Positions 2,643 to 50,345 of a stretch of 64,000 nt of DNA are shown here, in pieces (position 1 is the first letter of the stretch; each line of letters begins with the position of its first letter). Under the pieces are notes generated by a model. The model saw only the letters and a list, made by a program, of their open reading frames with translations, ran no database searches and was not told the origin of the DNA. The DNA lies in the NCBI RefSeq assembly GCF_021134715.1, contig NC_060026.1, forward strand, positions 8,423,001 to 8,487,000. The letters are read 5' to 3'. The position numbers and the translations under genes were made by a program. The DNA is from Daphnia pulex (Eukaryota; Arthropoda; Branchiopoda; Diplostraca; Daphniidae).

Positions 2643-2691
2643 GATGGGCTGTCGTCGTTCATTTTGTATCAAGAAGTATACCAGAAGTAGA

Positions 2692-2762
2692 GCATGGATA
2701 GTTCAGTGCTAGAATACGCGCCCGCCACGCGGGCGGCCCGGGTTCGATTCCCAATCGATGCA
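2692..2762 (+). pseudogene. tRNA-Gly(GCC)-like, degenerate
   Basis: This 71-bp tRNA-Gly body lies right after B. The anticodon triplet is still GCC, but U33 is C, the T stem is unpaired at its base (CCCAA instead of CCCGG), and the acceptor stem has a mismatch. It is probably a weak or dead gene. Confidence 0.75.
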
Positions 2763-2812
2763 TTTTAATCACCGTTGCCTACGACAGATTGGTAGAATCT
2801 ACTCTATTGAGT

Positions 2813-3145
2813 TTATTTTGCTGATATTCTTGCGCAGTACGCGTAAGGACGGTTCTTAGTGGTTAGTGGTGGTTGAAGCAATCTCTTTAAGCGGACTCTT
2901 TTTTGTTTGCGAGATTGGTTTAGATTACTTAATCTTCCTTTGATCATACCAATTGGCGAATAAACCATTTGTAGGACAGAGAGGTACAAGTTATATCCAT
3001 CGCCAGACTCTGTGTTTGTATCGTGGAAACCCAAGATAGTTATCGGTTCAAACTCGTCGTGTTCCAACTGCTGTGGTAATCGACATTCAGACGCAAATGT
3101 TCCCCCTTTTGTAAACTCACTTGGTTCTATGCTCTCCCATTCCAA
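2813..3145 (-). other. Exon-like open stretch of the array unit (first copy)
   Basis: Each unit carries this minus-strand stretch. It follows a long polypyrimidine tract ending in GACTTTAG, like a 3' splice site, and reads on as protein-like sequence (WESIEPSEF, then ASECRLPQQLEHDEFEP, then GFHDTNTESGDGYNLYL). There is no ATG start: an in-frame TAG coincides with the putative acceptor, and the open frame can only begin at TTG. I do not recognise the protein. Later copies begin at 3951, 8650, 13265, 14271, 15403, 16275, 17407, 18409, 19409, 20394, 25275, 26277, 27283, 28327, 29286, 30629, 31614, 32498, 33631, 34500, 35544, 36502, 37503, 38503, 39635, 40504, 41396, 42473, 43357, 44357, 45358, 46358, 47506 and 48368. 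A one-base indel splits copies into a short form (66 codons) and a long form (about 110). Many differences between copies change the residue, so translation is not supported. It may be a captured host exon. Confidence 0.45.
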
Positions 3146-3344
3146 AAACTGTAGTCCCGTGTAGATCTAAAGTCACATTTTGATAAAAAGAAAAAAAAAA
3201 CAGCTGACTAAGATTCAAATTGAATTAGGATACATGTGTGTTGAGATAACAAGATATAGAAACAATGGTGATTAATGTTATTTGAACGTTGTATCCGTTT
3301 TAAAAGCCTAAACATACCTTCACAAGAAATAAAATAATTTTGCT

Positions 3345-3416
3345 TGATCTCGACGTGATTTGAACACGCAACCTCCTGATCTGGAGTCAGGCGCGCTACC
3401 GTTGCGCCACGAAATC
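3345..3416 (-). tRNA. tRNA-Trp (CCA)
   Basis: Reference copy of the Trp gene. The 72-nt reverse complement folds as a cloverleaf: acceptor GATTTCG with CGAGATC, D stem GCGC/GCGC, anticodon stem CCTGA/TCAGG around loop CTCCAGA (anticodon CCA), T stem GCGTG/CACGT around TTCAAAT, discriminator A. It closely matches metazoan tRNA-Trp. Short T runs follow about 10-20 nt downstream on the minus strand, suiting Pol III termination. Upstream is a TATAAAA motif about 70 nt away and an AT-rich stretch nearer. Exact consensus of the array. Confidence 0.95.
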
Positions 3417-3698
3417 TTGATTTTCGATGTAATTACTATCTTTATATTTTGGTAACTACGGTGTCTTTTATAAAGGAATAGATTCTGATGGTAAGATTGA
3501 TTATCACACGAACACATTTAGTCTTTTGAAAGAGTCAGTCAGATTAGTCAGGTTATTTTTTTATATTTCCTTGGATCTTTTGATCGCCACAAGCCTTGAT
3601 TTTCGTAATAAAAGCTAACAAGCTTAGGCATGATAGTCGGCTACAATAGATGGGTTGTCGTCGTGCAATTTGTATCAAGAAGTATACGTGAGGGGCAA

Positions 3699-3769
3699 GC
3701 ATCGATGGTTCAGTGGTAGAATGCTCGCCTGCCTCGCGGGCGGCCCGGGTTCGATTCCCGGTCGATGCA
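3699..3769 (+). tRNA. tRNA-Gly (GCC)
   Basis: 71-nt cloverleaf: acceptor GCATCGA with TCGATGC, anticodon stem CTCGC/GCGGG, T arm CCGGG-TTCGATT-CCCGG. The loop is CTGCCTC, so the anticodon is GCC but base 37 is T instead of A. A TTTT terminator follows at once (GCATTTTAATC), and a TATAC motif lies about 20 nt upstream. Confidence 0.92.
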
Positions 3770-4215
3770 TTTTAATCACCATTGCCCAAGACAGATTGGT
3801 AGAATCTACTCTATTGAGTTTAGTTTGCTGATATTCTTGCGCAGTACGTATAAGGACGGTACTTAGTGGTTAGTGGTGGTTGAAGCAATCTCTTTAAGCG
3901 GACTCTTTTTTGTTTGCCAGATTGGTTTAGATTACTTAATCTTCCTTTGATCATACCAATTGGCGAAAAACCATTTGTAGGACAGAGAGGTACAAGTTAT
4001 ATCCATCGCCAGACTCTGTGTTTGTATCGTGGAAACCCAAGATAGTTATCGGTTCAAACTCGTCGTGTTCCAACTGCTGTGGTAATCGACATTCAGACGC
4101 AAATGTTCCCCCTTTTGTAAACTCACTTGGTTCTATGCTCTCCCATTCCAAAAACTGTAGTCCCGTGTAGATCTAAAGTCACATTTTGATAAAAGGAAAA
4201 AAAAAACAGCTGACT

Positions 4216-4252
4216 TCTGGAGTCAGCCGCGCTACCGTTGCTCCACGAAATC
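4216..4252 (-). pseudogene. Truncated tRNA-Trp
   Basis: Only the 5' half of the Trp gene (acceptor, D arm and part of the anticodon arm) remains. A deletion joins the CAGCTGAC after the poly-A tract directly to TCTGGAGTCAG. It lacks the T arm. Confidence 0.85.
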
Positions 4253-4315: not shown

Positions 4316-4679
4316 GAATATCCCAAATATCCCAATCAGCTAAAAGCCAACGAACTGCGTAAAATTTTTCTTCATATTGGACCAGTAATCTTCAAGGGAA
4401 TTTTATAAACAGAAAAGTAAACCCATTTTTGTATTAAGAGTTGGAAATTTGTATTCTCTGCTCTAGTATACGTTGTCTAAAACCTACTCTTAATTGGCTC
4501 AAGATTTTTTGCAATATTTTACTTTTCAATTTGGAGAAATTTATAGCAAGAACCACCTCATTCACAATGTTCATTCACTCATTCATTTAGTTGATGACTT
4601 GAGATCGATGGCTCACTTAATTAATTTTTTCTCTGCTTTTCCATATGAAACTTTCTGGGGTCACGTGAAGATGCTTTAA
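4316..4679 (+). pseudogene. Transposase-associated protein fragment, copy 1
   Basis: Two frames carry successive parts of a known-looking C-terminal half. The first reads KANELRKIFLHIGPVIFKGIL. Then, from about 4500, comes DFLQYFTFQFGEIY, then NVHSLIHLVDDLRS and FFSAFPYETFWGHVK. This order matches the C-terminal part of large uncharacterised, transposase-domain-containing proteins of Hydra and arthropods (motifs like NVHSLxHLxDDV and FSAFPYEN), recalled from memory. The reading frame is broken and the N-terminal half with any catalytic residues is absent, so it is dead. Confidence 0.55.
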
Positions 4680-5605
4680 AAATGCTTTTTAAAATTGGGT
4701 TCCGTCTTTTGCAATGATAACAACTAATAAATAATAAATAATAACACTAGTATTTCCCCATATGGATTTCAGAGTTTGGCGTAATGTTGTATTCAGCTCG
4801 TCATTTCATAGATCAATGTCGTACAGAAATGCAGTATTTGCAGAAGGTTGGTTCACCGATGTAACTTAAATTTTGCAGTGTAATTTTCAAGCTGGGTCCT
4901 ATGCTAAACCAATGTAGGAATTCAACTACTGCGAATAATCCTCACTTTAATATGTAATGTTGGCAAAATTGTGGCTATGATTAGAATTTTTGTATTGGAC
5001 TGGCAAGTTTGACCAAATGCGGTACCAAACTCTTCATCATTATGTCTGCTTTGGTCTAAGCTGAGAAAATCGGTGTCAGCGGAATGTTGGTTAACCTATC
5101 AGAAACTTGTCCCTATTCTAAACTAATCTTGAAATCCTTTCATTACAAATTATTTGTTGGATACATTGGTTATCTGCGATGTACAAAACATGAAAATCTC
5201 AATGGTGCATACAGACATTAGGTTGGTAGCGGGGTACTTACATTGGTTGAACCTAACTTTTCAAACGTGGCCCAATTTGCATATTGGCCTGGCTGTTTAA
5301 AACGTAATTCCAATATTTTTCAAGCCGTGACCCCATTTGCATTCATTTAAATAGATTAACCAACGCTAACCTTACCGAAATGAACATAGGCTTGACATAT
5401 TGGGCAATATTGCGAGCAATATTGTTTCTTGCCCGTGAATCAGGCACGTCAGTTGATGTTGATTTCCACCATGGCCCACCAAGTTATCCGATTTTGCAAC
5501 AATATTGTGTTTTTGATCCAAACAAGTGAAATGGCTAATTATGCCCCTTCCCAGAACCTAATTTTGTAAAAAACAGAACCAAAACGAAACTGCCAAATAC
5601 TAATT
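4680..5605. other. B central spacer
   Basis: No gene can be supported. The stretch is AT-rich with several CAATATTG and ATTGG/CCAAT motifs, some palindromic (near 5,400-5,430 and 5,505-5,515). The stretch 5085-5350 is open in copy 3 but not in copy 2, so I treat it as non-coding. Confidence 0.5.
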
Positions 5606-7203
5606 ATGCCGAGCCTTCATCATCATCATCGGAGCGTCCGGCAACAAAGAAGTCTAACAAGTAGTGCAAGTTACACCTGTAGCTCCACGTATTCCCCAAG
5701 GTACATTCATTATGGAATTTTGTTATATTTTTCTCTCAATACAGTGTTCATGTTGCCTTGTGTATTTCAGGAAATAAAGTTAACTCGGAACCGAAAAGTG
5801 AAAGAGAGTAACCATAAGGAAAAGGGTGATGGCTCTACAACACAAGCAGGTGATTCTATACGGGTTTTGAAGGTGATATGGTGAAATAGCATACTATTTT
5901 TTCTTCATTGCAGAAGCTCTAAAAAACCTAACAACGGCAACATCAAATAAGACTGTAACCAAAGCCCAGAAGTCAAAAGGTACGATATGTAATAATTTGA
6001 ATTATGAAACTGTAAGTCCAGATTATAACTTTTTATATTTGTGGTATAGTAACTCCTGCTGAAAAGCCAGAGTCTGATTCGTCTGTTCTGTAACAAGCTC
6101 ACCCTTCTGTCCCTTTAGAAAGAGTTCTGAAAATCTAGATCACAATAGCTCTGAAGAATCTACGTCAGAGGACGAGGTGAAAGAAAGGAATTCAAATGAC
6201 TGAAATACGCCTTCAGAACGGGAACTCATCCAGCAAAAGAAGAAGGGGGAGGGGGTGTTTCACGAACAAGATGAAGAGACCAGAAGATGAAACGGTAACT
6301 CAACCGATAGAAGGGGGTGTGCTCACGTCCAAATGAGAGAAACCAGAGAAATTTTGGTGTAAAACGACGAGGTAATACAGGATGTTATTTCTGTAAGCGA
6401 TGAAGACATATTGGGTAAGGAAAATGTCTTTATTGGTACACCTAAGTGACAACTACTAAAGATTTCTTTTGTTTACTTGTTTGTTGTTGTAGTAATCCAG
6501 CAGGCAGAAAAAGCAATGTTGGTACAGGTTGACGTTGCAAAAATGCTTATTGAGATCAAAATGGGAATACAGCAGCTGACTGACTTGTTCATGACGAGGA
6601 GACTTGAAATCGCTACCAACCTGCCTACACCAATTAATGGCTCGCCATGCTCAACTGACTGTGCCGATGAGTTGCCTGTGACAACTCAGACGTTTTTCGA
6701 GGAACTTGAAGTTAAGATGAGGAATGATGCAACGCTAAAGACACAAATCAGAAACGTCCTGACCCTGGTGAGGACCAACAAGAGCCTAAAGGCTATTGTC
6801 AGAAATGTATTAAAGAGCCTTATGTCTAAAGAGCTCAGAATGATGTACTTCCCCCGTAAAAAAACTAAAGTTAAACACGTCTTTACTGATATGTAGATGA
6901 TTTGTTCCTTTGTAATCGGTAAACTTTTAAAGCAATTCCCTTTTTTCTACCTGTTTTAATCTTTTTTGTTTACTCTTTAATTTAGACATAATTTGGCGTT
7001 GGGCCAGCAACACCAGCCAAGAGTTGACAAACGACACCATTCTAAAGGAAATGGGATTAGACACTTTCGCTAATGCAGCGGATGAGGACGGTGGGGTCGC
7101 TGATAGGAAGAAACTCACTGCCATTAAGAAAACTGCCATAGACAAGTTTTTAAAGCAAAAAGTACGACGTGGAACGGCAGACGAAGCCGTCAACAACGAT
7201 TAA
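5606..7203 (+). pseudogene. DUF4806-domain gene remnant, copy 2
   Basis: Most complete view of the exon series. A Ser-rich block starts near 5611 and ends at CCCCAAG/GTACAT. Further blocks begin after TGTATTTCAG (5771) and after CATTGCAG (5913, reading EALKNLTTATSNKTVTKAQ, ending AAAAG/GTACGA), followed by the acidic block (6119-6414), the DUF4806-like block (6493-6896) and the last block (6986-7203, TAA). Splice-like borders and phase continuity argue for a former gene. Stops inside the second and acidic blocks show it is now a pseudogene. Sequence is essentially identical to copy 1. Confidence 0.6.
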
Positions 7204-7320
7204 ACTTAAAAAACACGTAATTTGGAGTTGTTTGCTCTTTGCTACCACGTTTTATAAACTGTATTGGCAGCTATATCTGTTTTCGTTTCATTAATTAGCC
7301 CAATCCCCATTTTTTATCTG

Positions 7321-7687
7321 TTCCAATGCACCGTCTGTTTCAGAAACCTTGCATTGGCTTCAGCTCGTAACCGCACATATATGGTGATTTGGTACAACAT
7401 TGTTGTTTACATATGATTCTTTATCATGGTTAAACATTGGCTTCAAATAACGGTCTTTCAAGATGGAGATGAGTCAGGCACAAGATAGAGCCAATATTCC
7501 ACCGATATTCCACCAAGGTCGTATTGGCCCAATGCTAAAATTGGAGGAATGGTGGACCTGTCTCATATCGATCTTGGAACAACGTTAAATTTGCTTCCAG
7601 CACAATATTGGTCCAATGCAGCAATTGTTTCAGAAATCTCATGTTGGTTGCAGTTCGTAACCGCACATATGTGGTGCATTCGCACAA
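7321..7687 (+). repeat. 77-bp direct repeat pair inside B (copy 2)
   Basis: Same pair as in copy 1, at 7321-7397 and 7611-7687. Confidence 0.75.
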
Positions 7688-8528
7688 AGGTACACTTTCT
7701 CCTTACAGTAGATTCAGTGAGATGATGCTTACGATGCGCGAAATGATGAGAATTCGTCCAGATGTGTAAATAGACAATACGACCGGTTAGTATCGTTGAA
7801 CTTCCTGGAATTGGAGACAATTAGTTGGGCTAGATTTATCCCGGCTGTGGACGTCGACCACACCGAGGAGCTACAATCAGAGGCGGCCTGAAAGTAGGAT
7901 GGGACGGTCCAACGGTTGCGTCTTCTGGCATCTGCGGAATTGAGCCTAAACACGGATGTCGTCTGCAAATTCCCAATGGGTAAACGGTGAATGGTCCTGA
8001 ATCCAGATACTTACAACATTTCCTATTCAAAAAAAATATTCTAAGTCCACTCAAATACAAGTTACAAAGCCTGGACTCTCTACTGAGTCCAAGCCGACAA
8101 CAAAGACAATTCAACGGGTATTTGACCTGAGGGGGAGGACTCAAGACTCGGGACAGGAAGGTTCAATGAAGAGACGCTTACTGTTTGAGTGTTTGTGAAT
8201 GGATCATTGAGCTAACCTGAAATCGGCCAACTCAAGATGGTGTTTTGAGCCAGGACTCTTTTGTGCTTTCGTGGGGCCTCTAAAGTGAGAAATTCTCCCA
8301 TGAGACTATTTCCTATAAACTCCGCTTACGCTTCGGCCTGGGGAGTTTTGTCAGATTGGTGTGTGGGAAGGCGTTCCGATCCCCTGTGCAATGACGTAAC
8401 TGTGGTAGAGGCCTTTTTAGCCGACCAGGCAAATTCTAAGGCGTATAGCACGATTGGTGTTTATCGCTGGGCGGACCTCGATGGGCTGTCGTCGTTCATT
8501 TTGTATCAAGAAGTATACCAGAAATAGA

Positions 8529-8599
8529 GCATGGATAGTTCAGTGCTAGAATACGCGCCCGCCACGCGGGCGGCCCGGGTTCGATTCCCAATCGATGCA
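8529..8599 (+). pseudogene. tRNA-Gly(GCC)-like, degenerate
   Basis: Identical in type to 2692-2762: C at position 33, weak T stem (CCCAA), acceptor mismatch. It sits right after B copy 2. Confidence 0.75.
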
Positions 8600-12672: not shown

Positions 12673-12789
12673 GGATACATGTGTGTTGAGATAACAAGAT
12701 ATAGAAACAATGGTGATTAATGTTATTTGAACGTTGTATCCGTTTTAAAAGCCTAAACATACCTTCACAAGAAATAAAATAATTTTGCT

Positions 12790-12861
12790 TGATCTCGACG
12801 TGATTTGAACACGCAACCTCCTGATCTGGAGTCAGGCGCGCTACCGTTGCGCCACGAAATC
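12790..12861 (-). tRNA. tRNA-Trp (CCA)
   Basis: Exact array consensus. It lies 118 bp beyond the LINE insertion, in the same unit. The insertion is downstream of this gene's 3' end, so its promoter and terminator are untouched. Confidence 0.95.
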
Positions 12862-13143
12862 TTGATTTTTGATGTAATTACTATCTTTATATTTTGGTAA
12901 CTACGGTGTCTTTTATAAAGGAATAGATTCTGATGGTAAGATTGATTATCACACGAACACATTTAGTCTTTTGAAAGAGTCAGTCAGATTAGTCAGGTTA
13001 TTTTTTTATATTTCCTTGGATCTTTTGATCGCCACAAGCCTTGATTTTCGTAATAAAAGCTAACAAGCTTAGGCATGATAGTCGGCTACAATAGATGGGT
13101 TGTCGTCGTGCAATTTGTATTAAGAAGTATACGAAAGGGGTAA

Positions 13144-13214
13144 GCATCGATGGTTCAGTGGTAGAATGCACGCCTGCCTCGCGGGCGGCCCGGGTTCGAT
13201 TCCCGGTCGATGCA
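13144..13214 (+). tRNA. tRNA-Gly (GCC)
   Basis: Loop CTGCCTC (T37). The second base pair of the anticodon stem is broken by CACGC instead of CTCGC. Other arms match consensus. Confidence 0.85.
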
Positions 13215-13795
13215 TTTTAATCACCATTGCCCAAGACAGATTGGTAGAATCTACTCTATTGAGTTTAGTTTGCTGATATTTTTGCGCAGTACGTAAAAGG
13301 ACGGTACTTAGTGGTTAGTGGTGGTTGAAACAATCTCTTTAAGCGGACTCTTTTTTGTTTGCCAGATTGGTTTAGATTACGTAATCTTCCTTTGATCATA
13401 CCAATTGGCGAATAAACCATTTGTAGGACAGAGAGGTACAAGTTATATCCATCGCCAGACTCTGTGTTTGTATCGTGGAAACCCAAGATAGTTATCGGTT
13501 CAAACTCGTCGTGTTCCAACTGCTGTGGTAATCGACATTCAGACGCAAATGTTCCCCCTTTTGTAAACTCACTTGGTTCTATGCTCTCCCATTCCAAAAA
13601 CTGTAGTCCCGTGTAGATCTAAAGTCACATTTTGATAAAAAGAAAAAAAAACAGCTGACTAAGATTCAAATTGAATTAGGATACATGTGTGTTGAGATAA
13701 CAAGATATAGAAACAATGGTGATTAATGTTATTTGAACGTTGTATCCGTTTTAAAAGCCTAAACATACCTTCACAAGAAATAAAATAATTTTGCT

Positions 13796-13867
13796 TGATC
13801 TCGACGTGATTTGAACACGCAACCTCCTGATCTGGAGTCAGGCGCGCTACCGTTGCGCCACGAAATC
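13796..13867 (-). tRNA. tRNA-Trp (CCA)
   Basis: Exact consensus. The downstream AAATAAAATAATTTT on the plus strand gives a TTTT terminator in the transcript. Confidence 0.95.
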
Positions 13868-14149
13868 TTGATTTTCGATGTAATTACTATCTTTATATTT
13901 TGGTAACTACGGTGTCTTTTATAAAGGAATAGATTCTGATGGTAAGATTGATTATCACACGAACACATTTAGTCTTTTGAAAGAGTCAGTCAGATTAGTC
14001 AGGTTATTTTTTTATATTTCCTTGGATCTTTTGATCGCCACAAGCCTTGATTTTCGTAATAAAAGCTAATAAGCTTAGGCATGATAGTCGGCTACAATAG
14101 ATGGGTTGTCGTCGTGCAATTTGTATTAAGAAGTATACGAAAGGAGAAA

Positions 14150-14220
14150 GCATCGATGGTTCAGTGGTAGAATGCACGCCTGCCTCGCGGGCGGCCCTGG
14201 TTCGATTCCCGGTCGATGCA
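14150..14220 (+). tRNA. tRNA-Gly (GCC), weakened
   Basis: Shares CACGC and T37 with 13,144 and has an extra T-stem mismatch (CCTGG instead of CCGGG). Confidence 0.78.
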
Positions 14221-14796
14221 TTTTAATCACCATTGCCCAAGACAGATTGGTAGAATCTACTCTATTGAGTTTAGTTTGCTGATATTTTTGCGCAGTACGT
14301 AAAAGGACGGTACTTAGTGGTTAGTGGTGGTTGAAACAATCTCTTTAAGCGGACTCTTTTTTGTTTGCCAGATTGGTTTAGATTACGTAATCTTCCTTTG
14401 ATCATACCAATTGGCGAATAAACCATTTGTAGGACAGAGAGGTACAAGTTATATCCATCGCCAGACTCTGTGTTTGTATCGTGGAAACCCAAGATAGTTA
14501 TCGGTTCAAACTCGTCGTGTTCCAACTGCTGTGGTAATCGACATTCAGACGCAAATGTTCCCCCTTTTGTAAACTCACTTGGTTCTATGCTCTCCCATTC
14601 CAAAAACTGTAGTCCCGTGTAGATCTAAAGTCACATTTTGATAAAAAGAAAAAAAAACAGCCGACTAAGATTCAAATTGAATTAGGATACATGTTTGTTG
14701 AGATAACAAGATATAGAAACAATGGTGATTAATGTAATTTGAACGTTATATCCGTTTTAAAAGCCTAAACATATCTTCACAAGAAATATTTTTGCT

Positions 14797-14868
14797 TGAT
14801 CTCGACGTGATTTGAACACGCAACCTCCAGATCTGGAGTCAGGCGCGCTACCGTTGCGCCACGAAATC
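14797..14868 (-). tRNA. tRNA-Trp (CCA), one stem mismatch
   Basis: Loop CTCCAGA is intact. The anticodon stem carries one T-T mismatch (CCTGA against TCTGG). Confidence 0.85.
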
Positions 14869-38027: not shown

Positions 38028-38099
38028 TGATCTCGACGTGATTTGAACACTCAACCTCCTGATGTGGAGTCAGGCGCGCTACCGTTGCGCCACGAAATC
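38028..38099 (-). tRNA. tRNA-Trp (CCA), two changes
   Basis: Base 37 is C (loop CTCCACA), and one T-stem pair is lost (GAGTG instead of GCGTG). Confidence 0.82.
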
Positions 38100-38381
38100 T
38101 TGATTTTCGATGTAATTACTATCGTTATATTTTGGGAACTACGGTGTCTTTTATAAAGGAATAGATTCTGATTAAAAGATTGATTATCACACGAACACAT
38201 TTAGTCTTTTGAAAGAGTCAGTCAGATTAGTCAGGTTATTTTTTTATATTTCCTTGGATCTTTTGATCGTCACAAGCCTTGATTTCCGTAATGAAAGCTA
38301 ACAAGCTTAGGCATGATAGTCGGCTACAATAGATGGGTTGTCGTCGTGCAATTTGTATCAAGAAGTATACATGACGGGCAA

Positions 38382-38452
38382 GCATCGATGGTTCAGTGGT
38401 AGAATGCTCGACTCCCAACCGGGCGGCCCGGGTTCGATTCCCGGTCGATGCA
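38382..38452 (+). tRNA. tRNA-Gly (CCC)
   Basis: Same anticodon-arm patch as 33,379. Confidence 0.8.
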
Positions 38453-39028
38453 TTTTAATCACCATTGCCCAAGACAGATTGGTAGAATCTACTCTATTGA
38501 GTTTAGTTTGCTGATATTCTTGCGCAGTACGTATAAGGACGGTACTTAGTGGTTAGTGGTGGTTGAAGCAATCTCTTTAAGCGGACTCTTTTTTGTTTGC
38601 CAGATTGGTTTAGATTACTTAATCTTCCTTTGATCATACCAATTGGCGAATAAACCATTTGTAGGACATAGAGGTACAAGTTGTATCCATCGCCAGACTC
38701 TGTGTTTGTATCGTGGAAACCCAAGATAGTTATCGGTTCAAACTCGTCGTGTTCCAACTGCTGTGGTAATCGACATTCAGACGCAAATGTTCCCCCTTTT
38801 GTAAACTCACTTGGTTCTATGCTCTCCCATTCCAAAAACTGTAGTCCCGTGTAGATCTAAAGTCACATTTTGATAAAAAGAAAAAAAAACAGCTGACTAA
38901 GATTCAAATTGAATTAGGATACATGTGTGTTGAGATAACAAGATATAGAAACAATGGTGATTAATGTTATTTGAACGTTGTATCCGTTTTAAAAGCCTAA
39001 ACATACCTTCACAAGAAATATTTTTGCT

Positions 39029-39100
39029 TGATCTCGACGTGATTTGAACACGCAACCTCCTGATCTGGAGTCAGGCGCGCTACCGTTGCGCCACGAAATC
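39029..39100 (-). tRNA. tRNA-Trp (CCA)
   Basis: Exact consensus. Confidence 0.95.
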
Positions 39101-39382
39101 TTGATTTTCGATGTAATTACTATCGTTATATTTCGGGAATAACGGTGTCTTTTATAAAGGAATAGATTCTGATTGTAAGAATGATTATCACACGAACACA
39201 TTTAGTCTTTTGAAAGAGTCAGTCAGATTAGTCAGGTTATTTTTTTATATTTCCTTGGATCTTTTGATCGTCACAAGCCTTGATTTCCGTAATGAAAGCT
39301 AACAAGCTTAGGCATGATAGTCGGCTACAATAGATGGGTTGTCGTCGTGCAATTTGTATCAAGAAGTATACATGAGGGGCAA

Positions 39383-39453
39383 GCATCGATGGTTCAGTGG
39401 TAGAATGCTCGCCTGCCACGCGGGCGGCCCGGGTTCGATTCCCGGTCGATGCA
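39383..39453 (+). tRNA. tRNA-Gly (GCC), consensus copy
   Basis: Exact consensus with TTTT terminator. Confidence 0.96.
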
Positions 39454-40028
39454 TTTTAATCACCATTGCCCAAGACTGATTGGTAGATTCTACTCTATTG
39501 AGTTTAGCTTGCTGATATTCTTGCGCAGTACGTATAAGGACGGTACTTAGTGGTTAGTGGTGGTTGAAGCAATCTCTTTAAGCGGACTCTTTTTTGTTTG
39601 CCAGATTGGTTTAGATTACTTAATCTTCCTTTGATCATACCAATTGGCGAAAAACCATTTGTAGGACAGAGAGGTACAAGTTATATCCATCGCCAGACTC
39701 TGTGTTTGTATCGTGGAAACCCAAGATAGTTATCGGTTCAAACTCGTCGTGTTCCAACTGCTGTGGTAATCGACATGCAGACGCAAATGTTCCCCCTTTT
39801 GTAAACTCACTTGGTTCTATGCTCTCCCATTCCAAAAACTGTAGTCCCGTGTAGATCTAAAGTCACATTTTGATAAAAAGAAAAAAAAACAGCAGACTAA
39901 GATTCAAATTGAATTAGAATACATGTGTGTTGAGATAACAAGATATAGAAACAATGGTGATTAATGTTATTTGAATGTTGTATCCGTTTTAAAAGCCTAA
40001 ACATACCTTCACAAGAAATATTTTTGCT

Positions 40029-40100
40029 TGATCTCGACGTGATTTGAACACGCAACCTCCTGATCTGGAGTCAGGCGCGCTACCGTTGCGCCACGAAATC
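40029..40100 (-). tRNA. tRNA-Trp (CCA)
   Basis: Exact consensus in the gene. Its flank shares the 34,025 marks. Confidence 0.95.
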
Positions 40101-40382
40101 TTGATTATCGAAGTAATTATAATCGTTATATTTTGGGAACTACGGTGTCTTTTATAAAGGAATAGATTCTGATGGTAAGGTTGATTATCACACGAACACA
40201 TTTAGTCTTTTGAAAGAGTCAGTCAGATTAGTCAGGTTATTTTTTTATATTTCCTTGGATCTTTTGATCACCACAAGCCTTGATTTCCGTAATAAAAGCT
40301 AACAAGCTTAGGCATGATAGTCGGCTACAATAGATTGGTTGTCGTCGTGCAATTTGCATCAAGAAGTATACGTGAGAGGCAA

Positions 40383-40453
40383 GCATCGATGGTTCAGTGG
40401 TAGAATGCTCGCCTGCCACGCGGGCGGCCCGGGTTCGATTCCCGATCGATGCA
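40383..40453 (+). tRNA. tRNA-Gly (GCC), T-stem mismatch
   Basis: CCCGA in the T stem instead of CCCGG loses one pair. Otherwise consensus. Confidence 0.87.
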
Positions 40454-41030
40454 TTTTAATCACCATTGTCCAAGACAGATTGGTAGAATCTACTCTATTG
40501 AGTTTAGTTTGCTGATATTCTTGCGCAGTACGTATAAGGACGGTACTTAGTGGTTAGTGGTGGTTGAAGCAATCTCTTTAAGCGGACTCTTTTTTGTTTG
40601 CCAGATTGGTTTAGATTACTTAATCTTCCTTTGATCATACCAATTGGCGAATAAACCATTTGTAGGACAGAGAGGTACAAGTTATATCCATCGCCAGACT
40701 CTGTGTTTGTATCGTGGAAACCCAAGATAGTTATCGGTTCAAACTCGTCGTGTTCCAACTGCTGTGGTAATCGACATTCAGACGCAAATGTTCCCCCTTT
40801 TGTAAACTCACTTGGTTCTATGCTCTCCCATTCCAAAAACTGTAGTCCCGTGTAGATCTAAAGTCACATTTTGATAAAAAGAAAAAAAAAACAGCTGACT
40901 AAGATTCAAATTCAATTAGGATACATGTGTGTTGAGATAACAAGATATAGAAACAATGGTGATTAATGTTATTTGAATGTTGTATCCGTTTTAAAAGCCT
41001 AAACATACCTTCACAAAAAATATTTTTGCT

Positions 41031-41102
41031 TGATCTCGACGTGATTTGAACACGCAACCTCTTGATCTGGAGTCAGGCGCGCTACCGTTGCGCCACGAAA
41101 TC
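41031..41102 (-). tRNA. tRNA-Trp (CCA), one stem mismatch
   Basis: CTCTTGATC on the plus strand loses one anticodon-stem pair. The loop is normal. Confidence 0.86.
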
Positions 41103-41384
41103 TTGATTTTCGATGTAATTACTATCATTATATTTTGGGAACTACGGTGTCTTTTATAAAGGAATAGATTCTGATGGTAAGGTTGATTATCACACGAACA
41201 CATTTAGTCTTTTGAAAGAGTCAGTCAGATTAGTCAGGTTATTTTTTTATATTTCCTTGGATCTTTTGATCACCACAAGCCTTGATTTCCGTAATAAAAG
41301 CTAACAAGCTTAGGCATGATAGTCGGCTACAATAGATGGGTTGTCGTCGTGCAATTTGTATCAAGAAGTATACGTGAGGTGCAA

Positions 41385-41410
41385 GCATCGATGGTTCAGT
41401 GGTAGAATGT
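41385..41410 (+). pseudogene. Truncated tRNA-Gly at a deletion
   Basis: Only the first 25 or so bases (acceptor and D arm) remain. A deletion of about 146 bp, with a short filler (TCGGCCCGACACTGG), joins the D arm to the AATCTCTTTAAGCGG part of the next unit. Confidence 0.9.
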
Positions 41411-41885
41411 CGGCCCGACACTGGAGAATCTCTTTAAGCGGACTCTTTTTTGTTTGCCAGATTGGTTTAGATTACTTAATCTTCCTTTGATCATACCAAT
41501 TGGCGAATAAACCATTTGTAGGACAGAGAGGTACAAGTTATATCCATCGCCAGACTCTGTGTTTGTATAGTGGAAACCCAAGATAGTTATCGGTTCAAAC
41601 TCGTCGTGTTCCAAATGCTGTGGTAATCGACATTCAGACGCAAATGTTCCCCCTTTTGTAAACTCACTTGGTTCTATGCTCTCCCATTCCAAAAACTGTA
41701 GTCCCGTGTAGATCTAAAGTCACATTTTGATAAAAAGAAAAAAAAACAGCTGACTAAGATTCAAATTGAATTAGGATACATGTGTGTTGAGATAACAAGA
41801 TATAGAAACAATGGTGAATAATGTTATATGAATTTTGTATCCGTTTTAAAAGCCTAAACATACCTTCACAAGAAATATTTTTGCT

Positions 41886-41957
41886 TGATCTCGACGTGAT
41901 TTGAACACGCAACCTCCTGATCTGGAGCCAGGCGCGCTACCGTTGCGCCACGAAATC
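41886..41957 (-). tRNA. tRNA-Trp (CCA)
   Basis: One change makes the last anticodon-stem pair G-T. Otherwise consensus. Confidence 0.92.
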
Positions 41958-42239
41958 TTGATTTTCGATGTAATTACTATCGTTATATTTTGGGAACTAC
42001 GGTGTCTTTTATTAAGGAATAGATTCTGATGGTAAGGTTGATTATCACACGAACACATTTAGTCTTTTGAAAGAGTCAGTCAGATTAGTCAGGTTATTTT
42101 TTTATATTTCCTTGGATCTTTTGATCGCCACAAGCCTTGATTTCCGTAATAAAAGCTAACAAGCTTAGGCATGATAGTCGGCTACAATAGATGGGTTGTC
42201 GTCGTGCAATTTGTATCAAGAAGTATACGTGAGGGGCAA

Positions 42240-42310
42240 GCATCGATGGTTCAGTGGTAGAATGCTCGCCTGCTACGCGGGCGGCCCGGGTTCGATTCCT
42301 GGTCGATGCA
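42240..42310 (+). tRNA. tRNA-Gly body with Ser anticodon (GCT)
   Basis: The loop is CTGCTAC, so the anticodon is GCT, which reads AGC and AGT serine codons. All stems pair (one G-T in the T stem), and the TTTT terminator is present. If charged with glycine it would misread serine codons; glycyl-tRNA synthetase normally needs C36, so charging may fail. Confidence 0.82.
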
Positions 42311-42882
42311 TTTTAATCACCATTGCCCAAGACAGATTGGTAGAATCTACTCTATTGAGTTTAGTTTGCTGATATTCTTGCGCAGTACGTATAAGAACGG
42401 TACTTAGTGGTTAGTGGTGGTTGAAGCAATCTCTTTAAGCGGACTGTTTTTTGATTGCCAGATTGGTTTAGATTATTTAATCTTCCTTTGATCATACCAA
42501 TTGGCGAATAAACCATTTGTAGGACAGAGGTACAAGTTATATCCATCGCCAGACTCTGTGTTTGTATCGTGGAAACCCAAGATAGTTATCGGTTCAAACT
42601 CGTCTTGTTCCAACTGCTGTGGTAATCGACATTCAGACGCAAATGTTCCCCCTTTTGTAAACTCACTTGGTTCTATGCTCTCCCATTCCAAAAACTGTAG
42701 TCCCGTGTAGATCTTAAGTCACATTTTGATAAAAAGAAAAAAAAAGCTGACTAAAATTCAAATTGAAATAGGATACATGTGTGTTGAGATAACAAGATAT
42801 AGAAACAATGGTGATTAATGTTATTTGAACGTTGTATCCGTTTTAAAAGCCTAAACATACCTTCACAAGAAATTTTTTTGCT

Positions 42883-42954
42883 TGATCTCGACGTGATTTG
42901 AACACGCATCCTCCTGATATGGAGTCAGACGCGCTACCGTTGCGCCACGAAATC
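42883..42954 (-). tRNA. tRNA-Trp (CCA), divergent copy
   Basis: T27 (wobble), T37 and GGAT in the variable region. Anticodon CCA is kept. Confidence 0.83.
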
Positions 42955-43236
42955 TTAATTTGCGATGTAATTACTATCGTTATATTTTGGGAACAACGGT
43001 GTCTTTTATAAAGGAATAGATTCTTATGGTTAGATTGATTATCACACGAACACATTTAGTCTTTTGAAAGAGTCAGTCAGATTAGTCAGGTTATTTTTTT
43101 ATATTTCCTTGGATCTTTTGATCGCCACAAGCCTTGATTTCCGTAATGGAGGCTAACAAGCTTAGGCATGATAGTCGGCTACAATAGATGAGTTGTCGTC
43201 GTGCAATTTGTATCAAGAAGTATACGTGAGGAGCAA

Positions 43237-43306
43237 GCATCGATGGTTCAGTGGTAGAATGCTCGCCTGCCACGCGGGCGGCCGGGTTCGATTCCCGGTC
43301 GATGCA
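43237..43306 (+). tRNA. tRNA-Gly (GCC), short variable loop
   Basis: 70-nt form with GGCCGGG. Stems intact. Confidence 0.88.
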
Positions 43307-43882
43307 TTTTAATCACCATTGCCCAAGACAGATTGGTAGAATCTACTCTATTGAGTTTAGTTTGCTGATGTTCTTGCGCAGTACGTATAAGGACGGTACT
43401 TAGTGGTTAGTGGTGGTTGAAGCAATCTCTTTAAGCGGACTCTTTTTTGTTTGCCAGATTGGTTTAGATTACTTAATCTTCCTTTGATCATACCAATTGG
43501 CGAATAAACCATTTGTAGGACAGAGAGGTACAAGTTATATCCATCGCCAGACTCTGTGTTTGTATCGTGGAAACCCAAGATGGTTATCGGTTCAAACTCG
43601 TCGTGTTCCAACTGCTGTGGTAATCGACATTCAGACGCAAATGTTCCCCCTTTTGTAAACTCACTTGGTTCTATGCTCTCCCATTCCAAAAACTGTAGTC
43701 CCGTGTAGATCTAAAGTCACATTTTGATAAAAAGAAAAAAAAACAGCTGACTAAAATTCAAATTGAAATAGGATACATGTGTGTTGAGATAACAAGATAT
43801 AGAAACAATGGTGATTAATGTTATTTGAACGTTGTATCCGTTTTAAAAGCCTAAACATACCTTCACAAGAAATATTTTTGCT

Positions 43883-43954
43883 TGATCTCGACGTGATTTG
43901 AACACGCATCCTCCTGATCTGGAGTCAGACGCGCTACCGTTGCGCCGCGAAATC
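43883..43954 (-). tRNA. tRNA-Trp (CCA), divergent copy
   Basis: T27 wobble and C8. The flank reads AATCTGGATT. The same set of marks occurs at 45,884, 2,001 bp away. Confidence 0.82.
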
Positions 43955-44236
43955 TGGATTTTCGATGTAATTACTATCGTTATATTTTGGGAACTACGGT
44001 GTCTTTTATAAAGGAATAGATCCTGATGGTAAGATTGATTATCACACGAACACATTTAGTCTTTTGAAAGAGTCAGTCAGATTAGTCAGGTTATTTTTTT
44101 ATATTTCCTTGGATCTTTTGATCGCCACAAGCCTTGATTTCCGTAATGAAAGCTAACAAGCTTAGGCATGATAGTCGGCTACAATAGATGGGTTGTCGTC
44201 GTGCAATTTGTATCAAGAAGTATACGTGAAGGGCAA

Positions 44237-44306
44237 GCATCGATGGTTCAGTGGTAGAATGCTCGTCTGCCACGCGGGCGGCCGGGTTCGATTCCCGGTC
44301 GATGCA
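44237..44306 (+). tRNA. tRNA-Gly (GCC), short variable loop
   Basis: 70-nt form. T31 makes a wobble at the foot of the anticodon loop. Confidence 0.86.
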
Positions 44307-44882
44307 TTTTAATCACCATTGCCCAAGACAGATTGGTAGAATTTACTCTATTGAGTTTAGTTTGCTGATATTCTTGCGCAGTACGTATAAGGACGGTACT
44401 TAGTGGTTAGTGGTGGTTGAAGCAATCTCTTTAAGCGGACTCTTTTTTGTTTGCCAGATTGGTTTAGATTACTTAATCTTCCTTTGATCATACCAATTGG
44501 CGAATAAACCATTTGTAGGACAGAGAGGTACAAGTTATATCCATCGCCAGACTCTGTGTTTGTATCGTGGAAACCCAAGATAGTTATCTGTTCAAACTCG
44601 TCGTGTTCCAACTGCTGTGGTAATCGACATTCAGACGCAAATGTTCCCCCTTTTGTAAACTCACTTGGTTCTATGCTCTCCCATTCCAAAAACTGTAGTC
44701 CCGTGTAGATCTAAAGTCACATTTTGATAAAAAGAAAAAAAAACAGCTGACTAAGATTCAAATTGAATTAGGATACATGTGTGTTGAGATAACAAGATAT
44801 AGAAACAATTGTGATTAATGTTATTTGAATGTTGTATCCGTTTTAAAAGCCTAAACATACCTTCACAAGAAATATTTTTGCT

Positions 44883-44954
44883 TGATCTCGACGTGATTTG
44901 AACACGCAACCTCCTGATCTGGAGTCAGGCGCGCTAGCGTTGCGCCACAAAATC
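44883..44954 (-). tRNA. tRNA-Trp (CCA), D-loop change
   Basis: The D loop reads AACGCTA instead of AACGGTA, losing a conserved G. T6 makes a wobble in the acceptor stem. Confidence 0.8.
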
Positions 44955-45236
44955 TTGATTTTCGATGTAATTACTATCGTTATATTTTGGGAACTACGGT
45001 GTCTTTTATAAAGGAATAGATCCTGATGGTAAGATTGATTATCACACGAACACATTTAGTCTTTTGAAAGAGTCAGTCAGATTAGTCAGGTTATTTTTTT
45101 ATATTTCCTTGGATCTTTTGATCGCCACAAGCCTTGATTTCCGTAATGAAAGCTAACAAGCTTAGGCATGATAGTCGGCTACAATAGATGGGTTGTCGTC
45201 GTGCAATTTGTATCAAGAAGTATACGTGAGGGAAAA

Positions 45237-45307
45237 GCATCGATGGTTCAGTGATAAAATGCTCACCTACCACGCGGGCGGCCCGGGTTCAATTCCCGGT
45301 TGATGCA
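45237..45307 (+). tRNA. tRNA-Gly (ACC), degenerate
   Basis: The loop is CTACCAC, so the anticodon is ACC (glycine GGT codons). There is an A-C mismatch in the anticodon stem, GTGATAAAA in the D arm and TTCAATT in the T loop. Several changes affect both promoter boxes, so it is likely decaying. Confidence 0.68.
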
Positions 45308-45883
45308 TTTTAATCACCATTGCCCAAGACAGATTGGTAGAATCTACTCTATTGAGTTTAGTTTGCTGATATTCTTGCGCAGTACCTATAAGGACGGTAC
45401 TTAGTGGTTAGTGGTGGTTGAAGCAATCTCTTTAAGCGGACTCTTTTTTGTTTGCCAGATTGGTTTAGATTACTTAATCTTCCTTTGATCATACCAATTG
45501 GCGAATAAACCATTTGTAGGACAGAGAGGTACAAGTTATATCCATCGCCAGACTCTGTGTTTGTATCGTGGAAACCCAAGATGGTTATCGGTTCAAACTC
45601 GTCGTGTTCCAACTGCTGTGGTAATCGAAATTCAGACTCAAATGTTCCCCCTTTTGTAAACTCACTTGGTTCTATGCTCTCCCATTCCAAAAACTGTAGT
45701 CCCGTGTAGATCTAAAGTCACATTTTGATAAAAAGAAAAAAAAACAGCTGACTAAAATTCAAATTGAAATAGGATACATGTGTGTTGAGATAACAAGATA
45801 TAGAAACAATGGTGATTAATGTTATTTGAACGTTGTATCCGTTTTAAAAGCCTAAACATACCTTCACAAGAAATATTTTTGCT

Positions 45884-45955
45884 TGATCTCGACGTGATTT
45901 GTACACGCATCCTCCTGATCTGGAGTCAGACGCGCTACCGTTGCGCCGCGAAATC
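45884..45955 (-). tRNA. tRNA-Trp (CCA), divergent copy
   Basis: Like 43,883, plus TACAAAT in the T loop (T55 lost), which weakens the B box. Confidence 0.76.
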
Positions 45956-46237
45956 TGGATTTTCGATGTAATTACTATCGTTATATTTTGGGAACTACGG
46001 TGTCTTTTATAAAGGAATAGATCCTGATGGTAAGATTGATTATCACACGAACACATTTAGTCTTTTGAAAGAGTCAGTCAGATTAGTCAGGTTATTTTTT
46101 TATATTTCCTTGGATCTTTTGATCGCCACAAGCCTTGATTTCCGTAATGAAAGCTAACAAGCTTAGGCATGATAGTCGGCTACAATAGATGGGTTGTCGT
46201 CGTGCAATTTGTATCAAGAAGTATACGTGAAGGGCAA

Positions 46238-46307
46238 GCATCGATGGTTCAGTGGTAGAATGCTCGCCTGCCACGCGGGCGGCCGGGTTCGATTCCCGGT
46301 CGATGCA
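46238..46307 (+). tRNA. tRNA-Gly (GCC), short variable loop
   Basis: 70-nt form, stems intact. Downstream reads GCATTTAAATC, so the TTTT run is reduced to TTT. Confidence 0.86.
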
Positions 46308-46883
46308 TTTAAATCACCATTGCCCAAGACAGATTGGTAGAATTTACTCTATTGAGTTTAGTTTGCTGATATTCTTGCGCAGTACGTATAAGGACGGTAC
46401 TTAGTGGTTAGTGGTGGTTGAAGCAATCTCTTTAAGCGGACTCTTTTTTGTTTGCCAGATTGGTTTAGATTACGGAATCTTCCTTTGATCATACCAATTG
46501 GCGAATAAACCATTTGTAGGACAGAGAGGTACAAGTTATATCCATCGCCAGACTCTGTGTTTGTATCGTGGAAACCCAAGATAGTTATCGGTTCAAACTC
46601 GTCGTGTTCCAACTGCTGTGGTAATCGACATTCAGACGCAAATGTTCCCCCTTTTGTAAACTCACTTGGTTCTATGCTCTCCCATTCCAAAAACTGTAGT
46701 CCCGTGTAGATCTAAAGTCACATTTTGATAAAAAGAAAAAAAAACAGCTGACTAAGATTCAAATTGAATTAGGATACATGTGTGTTGAGATAACAAGATA
46801 TAGAAACAATGGTGATTAATGTTATTTGAACGTTGTAACCGTTTTAAAAGCCTAAACATACCTTCACAAGTAATATTTTTGCT

Positions 46884-46955
46884 TGATCTCGACGTGATTT
46901 GAACACGCAACCTCCTGATCTGGAGTCAGGCGCGCTACCGTTGCGCTATGAAATC
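46884..46955 (-). tRNA. tRNA-Trp (CCA), 5' changes
   Basis: The 5' end reads GATTTCATAGCGC, changing positions 7 and 9. The anticodon arm is consensus. Confidence 0.82.
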
Positions 46956-47237
46956 TTGATTTTCGATGTAATTACTATCGTTATATTTTGGGAACTACGG
47001 TGTCTTTTATAAAGGAATAGATTCTGATGGTAAGATTGAGTATCACACGAACACATTTAGTCTTTTGAAAGAGTCAGTCAGATTAGTCAGGTTATTTTTT
47101 TATATTTCCTTGGATCTTTTGATCGCCACAAGCCTTGATTTCCGTAATGAAAGCTAACAAGCTTAGGCATGATAGTCGGCTACAATAGATGGGTTGTCGT
47201 CGTGCAATTTGTATCAAGAAGTATACATGAGGTTTAA

Positions 47238-47308
47238 GCATCGATGGTTCAGTGGTAGAATGCTCGCCTGCCACGCGGGCGGCCCGGGTTCGATTCCCGG
47301 TCGATGCA
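47238..47308 (+). tRNA. tRNA-Gly (GCC), consensus copy
   Basis: Exact consensus in the gene. Downstream reads GCATTTGAATC (TTT only). Confidence 0.94.
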
Positions 47309-47883
47309 TTTGAATCACCATTGCCCAAGACAGATTGGTAGAATCTACTCTATTGAGTTTAGTTTGCTGATATTCTCGCGCAGTACGTATAAGGACGAAA
47401 CTTAGTGGTTAGTGGTGGTTGAAGCAATCTCTTTAAGCGGACTCTTTTTTGTTTGCCAGATTGGTTTAGATTACTTAATCTTCCTTTGATCATACTAATT
47501 GGTGACTAAACCATTTGTAGGACAGAGAGGTACAAGTTATATCCATCGCCAGACTCTGTGTTTGTATCGTGGAAACCCAAGATAGTTATCGGTTCAAACT
47601 CGTCGTGTTCCAACTGCTGTGGTAATCGACATTCAGACGCAAATGTTCCCCCTTTTGTAAACTCACTTGGTTCTATGCTCTCCCATTCCAAAAACTGTAG
47701 TCCCGTGTAGATCTAAAGTCATATTTTGATAAAAAGAAAAAAAAAAGCTGACTAAGATTCAAATTGAATTAGGATACATGTGTGTTGAGATAACAAGATA
47801 TAGAAACAATGGTGATTAATGTTATTTGAACGTTGTAACCGTTTTAAAAGCCTAAACATACCTTCACAAGAAATATTTTTGCT

Positions 47884-47955
47884 TGATCTCGACGTGATTT
47901 GAACACGCAACCTCCTGATCTGGAGTCAGGCGCGCTACCGTTGCGCCATGAAATT
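47884..47955 (-). tRNA. tRNA-Trp (CCA), acceptor changes
   Basis: The 5' end is AATTTCATGG: the first and seventh acceptor pairs are lost. The anticodon arm is consensus. Confidence 0.78.
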
Positions 47956-48237
47956 TTGATTTTCGATGTTATTACTATCGTTATATTTTGGGAACTACGG
48001 TGTCTTTTATAAAGGAATAGATTCTGATGGTAAGATTGATTATCACACGAACACATTTAGTCTTTTGAAAGAGTCAGTCAGATTAGTCAGGTAATTTTTT
48101 TATATTTCCTTGGATCTTTTGATCGCAACAAGCCTTGATTTCCGTAATGAAAGCTAACAAGCTTAGGCATGATAGTCGGCTACAATAGATGGGTTGTCGT
48201 CGTGCAATTTGTATCAAGAAGTATACATGAGGGGCAA

Positions 48238-48308
48238 GCATCGATGGTTTAGTGGTAGAATGCTCGCCTGCCACGCGGGCGGCCCGGGTTCGATTTCCGG
48301 TCGATGCA
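48238..48308 (+). tRNA. tRNA-Gly (GCC), two changes
   Basis: GGTTTAG in the D arm and a T-stem mismatch (TTCCGG after the T loop). The anticodon arm is consensus. Confidence 0.84.
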
Positions 48309-48885
48309 TTTTAATCACCATTGCCCAAGACAGATTGGTAGAATCTACTTTATTGAGTTTAGTTTGCTTATATTCTCGCGCAATACGTATAAGGACGAAA
48401 CTTAGTGGTTAGTGGTGGTTGAAGCAATCTCTTTAAGCGGACTCTTTTTTGTTTGCCAGATTGGTTTAGATTACTTAATCTTCCTTTGATCATACCAATT
48501 GGTGAATAAACCATTTGTAGGACAGAGAGGTACAAGTTATATCCATCGCCAGACTCTGTGTTTGTATCGTGGAAACCCAAGATAGTTATCGGTTCAAACT
48601 CATCGTGTTCCAACTGCTGTGGTAATCGACATTCAGACGCAAATGTTCCCCCTTTTGTAAACTCACTTGGTTCTATGCTCTCCCATTCCAAAAACTGTAG
48701 TCCCGTGTAGATCTAAAGTCACATTTTGATAAAAAGAAAAAAAAACAGCTGACTAAGATTCAAATTGAATTAGAAAACATGTGTGTTGAGATAACAAGAT
48801 ATAGAAACAATGGTGATTAATGTTATTTGAACGTTGTATCCGTTATTTAAGCACAAAGATACCTTCATAAGAGATATTTTTTTCT

Positions 48886-48957
48886 TGATCTCGACGTGAT
48901 TTGAACACGCAACCTTCTGATCTGGAGTCAGGAGCGCTACCACTGCGCCACGAAATC
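48886..48957 (-). tRNA. tRNA-Trp (CCA), edge unit
   Basis: The most divergent intact Trp copy: D loop AGTGGTA, TCAGA in the anticodon stem, and T at position 26. Its 3' flank (GCACAAAGATACCT) matches the pseudogene unit at 15.8 kb rather than its neighbours. As the array edge it may preserve an older sequence. Confidence 0.85.
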
Positions 48958-49240
48958 TTAATTTTCGATGTAATTACTATCGTTACATTTTGGGAACTAC
49001 GGTGTCTTTTATAAAGGAATAGATTATGATGGTAAGATTGATTATCACACGAACACATTTAGTCTTTTGAAAGAGTCAGTCAGATTAGTCAGGTTATTTT
49101 TTTTATATTTCTGTGGATCTTTTGATCGCCACAAGCCTTGATTTGCGTAATGAAAGCTAACAAGCTTAGGCATGATAGTTGGCTACAATAGATGGGATGT
49201 CGTCGTTCAATTTGTATCAAGAAGTATACTTGAGGGACAA

Positions 49241-49311
49241 GCATCGATGGTTCAGTGGTAGAATGCTCGCCTGCCACGCGGGCGGCCCGGGTTCGATTCC
49301 CGGTCAATGCA
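49241..49311 (+). tRNA. tRNA-Gly (GCC), last copy
   Basis: Consensus except TCAATGC in the acceptor strand (one mismatch). The unit after it is cut off near 49,571. Confidence 0.88.
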
Positions 49312-50345
49312 TTTTAATCACCATTGCCCACGACTCATTGGTAGAATCTAATCTATTGAGTTTAGTTTGCTGATATTCTTGCGCAGTTCGCGTAAAGACG
49401 GTACTTAGTGGTTAGTGGTGGTTGAAGCAATCTCTTTAAGCGGACTCTTTTTTAATTGCCAGATTGGTTTAGATTACTTCATCTTCCTTTGATCATACCA
49501 ATTGGCGAATAAACCATTTGTAGGACAGAGAGGTACAAGTTATATCCATCGCCAGACTGTGTGTTTGTATCGAGGAAACGAAATGGAAACCCGAACAATG
49601 GGTTCCAGAGGAGCAGAAGTGAAGAAAACTTTCAGAGCAAGAACAACTACTAAAGGAAAACTTAAAAACATCAAAGAAAGTATCATGTAAATACACAATA
49701 TTCATAAATACAAGTTATTCCACGTAGAAATCGGAATAGATAATTAGTAGACACTGGCGCACTGGCGTGCAATGTCCTAATATTTTTCCTCTAGTTTACC
49801 AAAAATATAGTTACAAATGAAGTAGAATGTCAAGACGAAAAACTTCATAGTATTTGTGTACGGGAAATGAAAATTTCAAGATTATATGAGATACCGATCA
49901 GTGTAGATTCGAAAACAAACACAATCAAACAACAATTTACGTGATACCAAATCTAACAAAAACGTGTTTATTAGGAATGGACTTTATCAAAACAAATTCT
50001 GTTATATTAAAAGGTATAGCTAGAAAACTTTCATACATTATAAACAAGAAAATAATTCTAATTGAAAGATGAATTTTAAAAAATATACAGTATAAATTAA
50101 CGCTGAAAGGTGTAAAAAAAATCAGTATATGAAGAAGCCGACCCATTTACAATAGAAGATACAAGTCTCAAGATACACAGAGAAAAAAACTAAACTGATA
50201 ACGCCCACATATCGCTTCTATCCACCTTGCTAAAAAGAAAGGAGGAGGACACCGATTTTGTATGGATTTTTGCCAATTAAATTCGTTAACGACAAAAGAT
50301 AAATTCCACTTCCAAGAATTGACGACACGATAAACTACTAGTATT

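Follow-up and report, generated by a model that had tools for sequence, protein, structure and literature searches.

A tandem array of divergent tRNA-Trp and tRNA-Gly genes in Daphnia pulex, with two unit families, a conserved consensus and decaying copies

In Daphnia pulex, transfer RNA (tRNA) genes for tryptophan and glycine form a divergent pair that is repeated in tandem in units of about 1 kb. The stretch analysed here, called the window, covers 64,000 nucleotides of contig NC_060026.1 (positions 8,423,001-8,487,000; this contig is designated C10, and the others of the assembly are named likewise) and holds only the right end of a larger array. The array is a new example of a tandem tRNA gene array, built from a two-gene divergent unit, with two old families and with a consensus that is conserved while single copies decay. 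Judging from the sequence, it is probably functional and transcribed by RNA polymerase III (Pol III) in the germ line, and its consensus would be kept by selection at the level of the array together with unequal exchange. The combination of an intact consensus for the pair with the fastest mutation in or near the tRNA genes suggests a working gene factory and not junk.

The unit is repeated head to tail in the window from 2692 to 49579 (blastn matches on both strands) with recognisable tRNA genes. For example, a tRNA-Trp(CCA) gene of consensus sequence lies on the minus strand at 3345..3416; it is followed by a divergent spacer of 282 bp, in which the 5′ flanks stand head to head (3417..3698), and by a tRNA-Gly(GCC) gene on the plus strand at 3699..3769, which is one base off consensus and has TTTT directly 3′. 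Both genes were found with ARAGORN, blastn and Rfam. The first-pass annotation of this DNA had counted 36 Gly and 35 Trp loci, and blastn with one Gly and one Trp query returned the same numbers, all Gly on the plus strand and all Trp on the minus strand. One match of each kind is a fragment, namely a truncated Trp of 37 nt (4216..4252, minus strand) and a truncated Gly of 25 nt (41385..41409, plus strand). Most of these loci are also called as tRNA genes (66 calls by ARAGORN, 68 by Rfam above the gathering score), but not all deserve the name: the Gly copies at 2692..2762 and 8529..8599, both on the plus strand and adjoining an insert, and the one at 25154 are only 87% identical to the query. 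Changed anticodons were reported by ARAGORN for Gly (tcc, ccc, acc, gca and gct) and for a Trp-type copy (caa).

A shared spacer of about 282 bp had been proposed, and its length is exactly 282 bp in 31 of 33 Trp-Gly pairs (281 and 283 bp in the other two). The near-constant unit length described earlier holds for 29 of 34 Trp-to-Trp distances (997-1006 bp), though only between interruptions; the outlying distances are 836, 855, 1212, 4999 and 8609 bp. Uninterrupted blocks of units lie at 12673..20937, at 25154..30317, where the first Gly (25154-25224) is degenerate, at 30522..41412 and at 41427..49579, the last of these being the right array end. The interruptions consist of two full 4.14-kb inserts and the end of a third, one long interspersed nuclear element (LINE) and one 204-bp element resembling a miniature inverted-repeat transposable element (MITE). 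The left end had been placed inside the window; this proved wrong, as the window starts with the end of a transposon-like insert that itself lies inside the array.

The unit was therefore followed through the genome (133,188,837 bases in 13 contigs). Twenty stretches were located, of which 15 were assembled with the window into one array, called array A; the remaining five lie at 8.97-9.02 Mb and hold 29 Gly and 29 Trp. Unit sequence of array A runs from C10:8,295,436 to C10:8,472,579 (window position 49,579), i.e. over 177 kb, so that the array starts about 127 kb to the left of the window. It holds 95 Gly and 94 Trp matches including fragments, and 91 and 92, respectively, of at least 65 nt. 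A spacer motif of the unit (up to 2 mismatches) was found 309 times in forward and 0 times in reverse orientation in the whole genome, and the matches to a Trp core, at no more than 3 mismatches, number 303 on one strand and 2 on the other; the reversed control patterns gave 0 matches. The two forward Trp-core matches would fit plus-strand dispersed Trp genes on C6 and C5. Among the matches listed, all units lie on C10, at 5.08-5.17, 8.30-8.47, 8.98-9.10 and 10.79-10.84 Mb. A tRNA-derived short interspersed nuclear element, with dispersed retrocopies in both orientations, was rejected on these grounds: the units are in tandem, the motif is found in one orientation only, and the 100 matches listed are all on C10. 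An exact search of viral contigs with one 22-base spacer motif of the unit gave no match.

Comparison of the blocks revealed two families. The consensus of family I, to which the window belongs, was derived from 96 units from 8.3-8.5 and 9.0 Mb and is 1,001 bp long; these are the units of 960-1030 bp, and units with inserts or large deletions were excluded. The consensus of family II (973 bp) comes from 15 units at 5.1 Mb. Sampled units match the family I consensus at 98-99.5% identity if they come from 9.06 or 10.79 Mb, and at 75-79% if they come from 5.1 Mb. The tRNA genes of the two consensuses are identical (Trp 72/72, Gly 71/71), as against 72% identity, gaps aside, for the divergent spacer, 69% for the spacer 3′ of Gly, 79% for the region of a 117-amino-acid reading frame in the long spacer and 57% for the remaining spacer. 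Consensus differences number 0 in 143 positions for the tRNA genes and 235 in 825 for the spacers, and the identical block around Gly terminates with TTTT. When sites variant in more than one copy of family I were counted as polymorphic, the ratio of polymorphic to fixed sites was 64:0 in the tRNA genes and 206:156 in the spacers (Fisher p = 1e-14, a value that is indicative only, the copies being related). Selection on the tRNA genes is seen at the level of the array consensus; single copies decay. Both consensus genes contain A- and B-box regions. In the long spacer, blocks of 21 and 22 nt (alignment columns 698-718 and 740-761, 0-based) are also identical in the two consensuses, and the first contains, by eye, the B-box-like stretch GGTTCAAAC.

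The decay of single copies is considerable. Exact consensus copies in family I amount to 17 of 96 for Gly and 36 of 96 for Trp. Among full-length copies (91 Gly and 89 Trp, after 5 and 7 were dropped), the anticodon is no longer GCC in 19 Gly and no longer CCA in four Trp, three of which read TCA or CTA; CCA is kept in 85 of 89 Trp, and all stem pairs are intact in 61 of 89. The Gly anticodon of family I appears to be hypervariable when compared with random triples (p = 0.0014), and 2 of 69 consecutive triplets reach its value, which is suggestive; such hypervariability was unsupported for Trp in family I (p = 0.085) and for Gly (0.10) and Trp (0.34) in family II. It is tentatively proposed that the array acts as a natural experiment in mutation and selection within a single genome: germ-line Pol III transcription would hypermutate about 300 copies of the two genes, array-level selection would keep the consensus, and the anticodon-changed tRNAs in this pool could reach low expression or seed anticodon switching. 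A possible terminator, which together with the diversity peaks described below would be an indirect sign of Pol III transcription, is well kept on one side: TTTT stands directly 3′ of Gly in 92 of 96 family I and in 15 of 15 family II units.

Diversity along the unit is uneven. In family I, mean pairwise diversity is 0.031 for Trp, 0.063 for Gly and 0.014 for the reading-frame region, and in both families the 20 bp 5′ of Gly are the most diverse part (0.124 in family I and 0.118 in family II). The 20-bp flanks upstream and downstream of Trp reach 0.049 and 0.077 in family I, and 0.084 and 0.088 in family II, where both Gly (0.038) and Trp (0.025) lie below their own near 5′ flanks. Genes with 40 bp on each side show 0.057, compared with 0.023 elsewhere in the family I unit. 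Removal of near-identical units (within 0.5% of another; from 96 to 73) altered this pattern little, and the peaks recur when the units are split into A-left (39 units), A-window (29) and B (28): in each subset, diversity is higher in the 40-bp flanks than in the mid-spacer or the reading-frame region. CpG decay was considered as a cause of the Gly diversity and rejected, as transitions were found at 15 of the 18 CpG sites and at 23 of the 28 remaining C/G sites. Pol III transcription is linked to raised mutation at tRNA genes, and the peaks here may indicate that it acts in this way in the germ line; they could be mimicked if the genes were under relaxed constraint or their DNA were prone to breaks.

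The following course of events would account for these observations. One divergent pair of tRNA-Trp-CCA and tRNA-Gly-GCC with a shared upstream region of 282 bp may have been multiplied by unequal exchange to about 309 units of the same orientation, in several blocks of one chromosome. The whole array would supply tRNA, and this supply would be its benefit; selection would hold both consensus genes, with individual copies expendable and free to decay. Under germ-line Pol III transcription, mutation would be faster in the genes and flanks than over most of the remaining unit, and unequal exchange and gene conversion would spread good copies and purge bad ones. A bulk supply of Gly and Trp tRNA had been suggested in the first-pass annotation; this is indirectly favoured by the identical consensus genes amid spacers of 57-79% identity, by the 0 fixed differences and by the peaks beside the genes.

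Several observations weigh against a functional, transcribed array. A matched 1:1 supply of the two tRNAs is doubtful, because the demand for Gly and Trp differs greatly. All stem pairs are intact in only 36 of 91 full-length Gly copies, and the GCC anticodon is kept in only 72 of them. Most Trp copies are without a near TTTT: in family I, 75 of 96 units have their first TTTT 34-36 nt away and 12 have it at 10 nt, and in family II 12 of 15 units have it at 28 nt. The excess of diversity at the genes and flanks is moderate, since its value is reached in 20 of 1001 circular shifts, a count that includes the observed arrangement; in block B, Gly (0.059) is more diverse than its own 5′ flank (0.051), and a spacer stretch away from the tRNA genes (unit positions 829-961; 0.048) is as diverse as the flanks. 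Homogenisation between neighbours was tried and rejected, adjacent units being barely closer to each other than average ones (0.027 vs 0.032 in A, 0.023 vs 0.027 in B). Family II is known from 15 units only, and the Gly core (up to 3 mismatches) has 44 reverse matches in the genome besides 343 forward ones, which implies more dispersed Gly-like genes than those inspected.

Three dispersed Trp genes were found outside the arrays with up to 1 mismatch to a 30-base Trp core, two on C6 and one on C5, and ARAGORN calls all of them tRNA-Trp. Compared with these genes, the array Trp shows 8, 6 and 7 base differences, 18 of the 21 in stems, and it has every stem pair intact. Where both sides of a pair are changed, 7 of 8 pairs are still formed, and where one side is changed, 2 of 2; the one broken pair belongs to a dispersed gene. 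By eye, the first TTTT lies farther off in the array Trp than in the three dispersed genes. A dispersed tRNA-Gly on C8 is identical to the array Gly consensus. The usual animal Gly 5′ end with G7 has 0 exact matches in the genome.

These dispersed genes bear on the view that the unit is a mostly inert satellite that was spread by unequal exchange for itself, in which a few copies and the dispersed genes do the work and the consensus reflects selection on those few. The many decayed tRNA copies would agree with it, as would the three Trp and at least one Gly gene elsewhere, the reverse-strand Gly-core matches, and the transposon-like elements that are tolerated in the array and amplified along with it. 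It is nevertheless rather doubtful, given that both consensus genes are identical in two families despite a spacer divergence of 21-43% and that diversity peaks at the genes in both. Since tRNA clusters can act as boundaries, the array might also matter as a structural or insulating domain, i.e. as a chromatin boundary or TFIIIC platform, and not for its tRNAs. Its A- and B-box regions and the B-box-like stretch (by eye) in the conserved 21-nt spacer block are compatible with such a role, which we consider improbable: a boundary could do without a complete, identical tRNA whose acceptor stem and anticodon are preserved, yet this is what is conserved. It is even less probable that the assembly has expanded a small array. 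Very large segments are indeed nearly identical (10.7 kb at 99.7% and 25 kb at 99.5%); the latter pair lies at C10:8342239-8367270 and 8363283-8388303, shifted by 21 kb, and is either an effect of assembly or the trace of a large unequal exchange that took place recently within the array. The duplicates still differ, however; 73 of the 96 units are left after those within 0.5% of another are dropped, and the blocks are megabases apart, one of them about 25% diverged. A protein from a separate source also matches the frame of the unit. Expansion from one or a few units by assembly is unlikely.

This protein match concerns the stop-free frame of 117 amino acids in the long spacer, on the Trp strand (example at 13265..13618, minus strand, judged non-coding), and the least credible of the alternatives is that the unit codes for protein, as a tandem gene or exon, and that the tRNAs are passengers. 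Of the 96 family I units, 51 have the frame open (counting the window alone, 16 of 29); it is stop-free in 130 of the best-scoring 150 copies, it is preceded by a polypyrimidine-AG stretch (by eye), and its region has the lowest diversity of the unit. Coding is contradicted by the stop in the other 20 copies, by lengths other than multiples of three in 41 of the 96 units, by the absence of a frame of this length from 15 of 15 family II units and by diversity at codon positions 1, 2 and 3 of 0.013, 0.021 and 0.008, which is the reverse of coding selection. No Pfam family was found for the frame, and its single match in the protein database, labelled ‘lgn’ and from a source whose longest contig is 1,008 bp, is nearly self-identical (95% identity over 94%). 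With neither a synonymous excess nor a frame kept between the families, a protein-coding tandem gene was rejected, and the frame, which lies where the unit varies least, is probably a relic or arose by chance.

The 4.14-kb transposon-like insert is present in the window at 4321..8460, where it replaces part of the divergent spacer, at 20943..25084 (99.3% identical) and, with its end only, at 1..2623, all on the plus strand. It takes the place of about 170 bp of the divergent spacer (by eye) and ends 69-70 bp before Gly in 15 of 15 array A copies with a complete right end. A weak DUF4806-like frame in it (E 0.075) lies below the Pfam cut-off. Relatives of a 1-kb piece of the insert are found on C2, C3, C8 and C11 and elsewhere on C10, which indicates that this element is dispersed and took part in the amplification of the array. 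The Gly directly after the complete insert end is 82-90% identical to the query in 15 of 15 array A cases; given this joint amplification, the 15 degenerate copies probably stem from one event and not from 15. Within the insert copies that precede the window, further insertions recur at matching sizes (1,571, 2,093 and about 3,145 bp); these nested insertions could mark the order of duplication. The LINE at 9070-12672 (minus strand) has an open frame of 1,107 amino acids with endonuclease and reverse transcriptase domains (Pfam); it is present in one array A unit only and, by eye, has a (GTAT)n tail and is flanked on each side by GGATAC. The 204-bp element at 30318-30521 has, by eye, inverted ends (ACAGTATCGTCCAAAAAAATCCGAAC...) and TA on both sides and is presumably akin to a Tc1/mariner MITE. 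In the right flank, a degraded Ty3/Gypsy-like reverse transcriptase stretch with the motif MPFGLTNAPATFQ lies at 52410-52500 (by eye), and a tandem repeat of 393 bp (2.2 copies, 97% matches) at 53891-54758.

A limited literature search found no title on such a Trp/Gly tRNA array, and a word search for ‘tRNA’ in the main text of the D. pulex assembly paper (PMC5427498) gave no match. The tRNA gene count is likewise high in Daphnia magna, for which the excerpted annotation text reports 2,614 tRNA genes and names no array or unit (PMC10570034). The two families, with genes at 100% and spacers at 57-79% identity, let selection on the genes be read directly, and the array-specific differences in tRNA-Trp, which include its acceptor stem GATTTCG, make array expression distinguishable from that of the three dispersed Trp genes. 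If our interpretation is right, the array shows selection acting on the set of units as a whole, where any one copy can be spared, and its hundreds of paralogous units offer a within-genome test of transcription raising mutation at tRNA genes.

In Xenopus laevis, a tandem unit of about 3.2 kb with several tRNA genes is present in high copy. The array described here resembles it in that different tRNA genes share a repeated unit that is amplified in tandem in an animal; it differs in having two genes only, strictly divergent, in a 1-kb unit, with the matches listed on one chromosome, two diverged families and diversity peaks at the genes. The tRNA gene arrays of the protist Entamoeba histolytica cover many isotypes, and short tandem repeats abound in them; their tandem units each contain one or several tRNA genes. 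Tandem tRNA gene units are common to both, and here they are formed by a single pair in an animal. Where transcription-associated mutation acts on tRNA genes, the sequence directly beside them varies most. Variation is also highest in the immediate tRNA flanks in the present array, but here it is variation between paralogous units of one genome, and Gly is about as variable as parts of its flanks.

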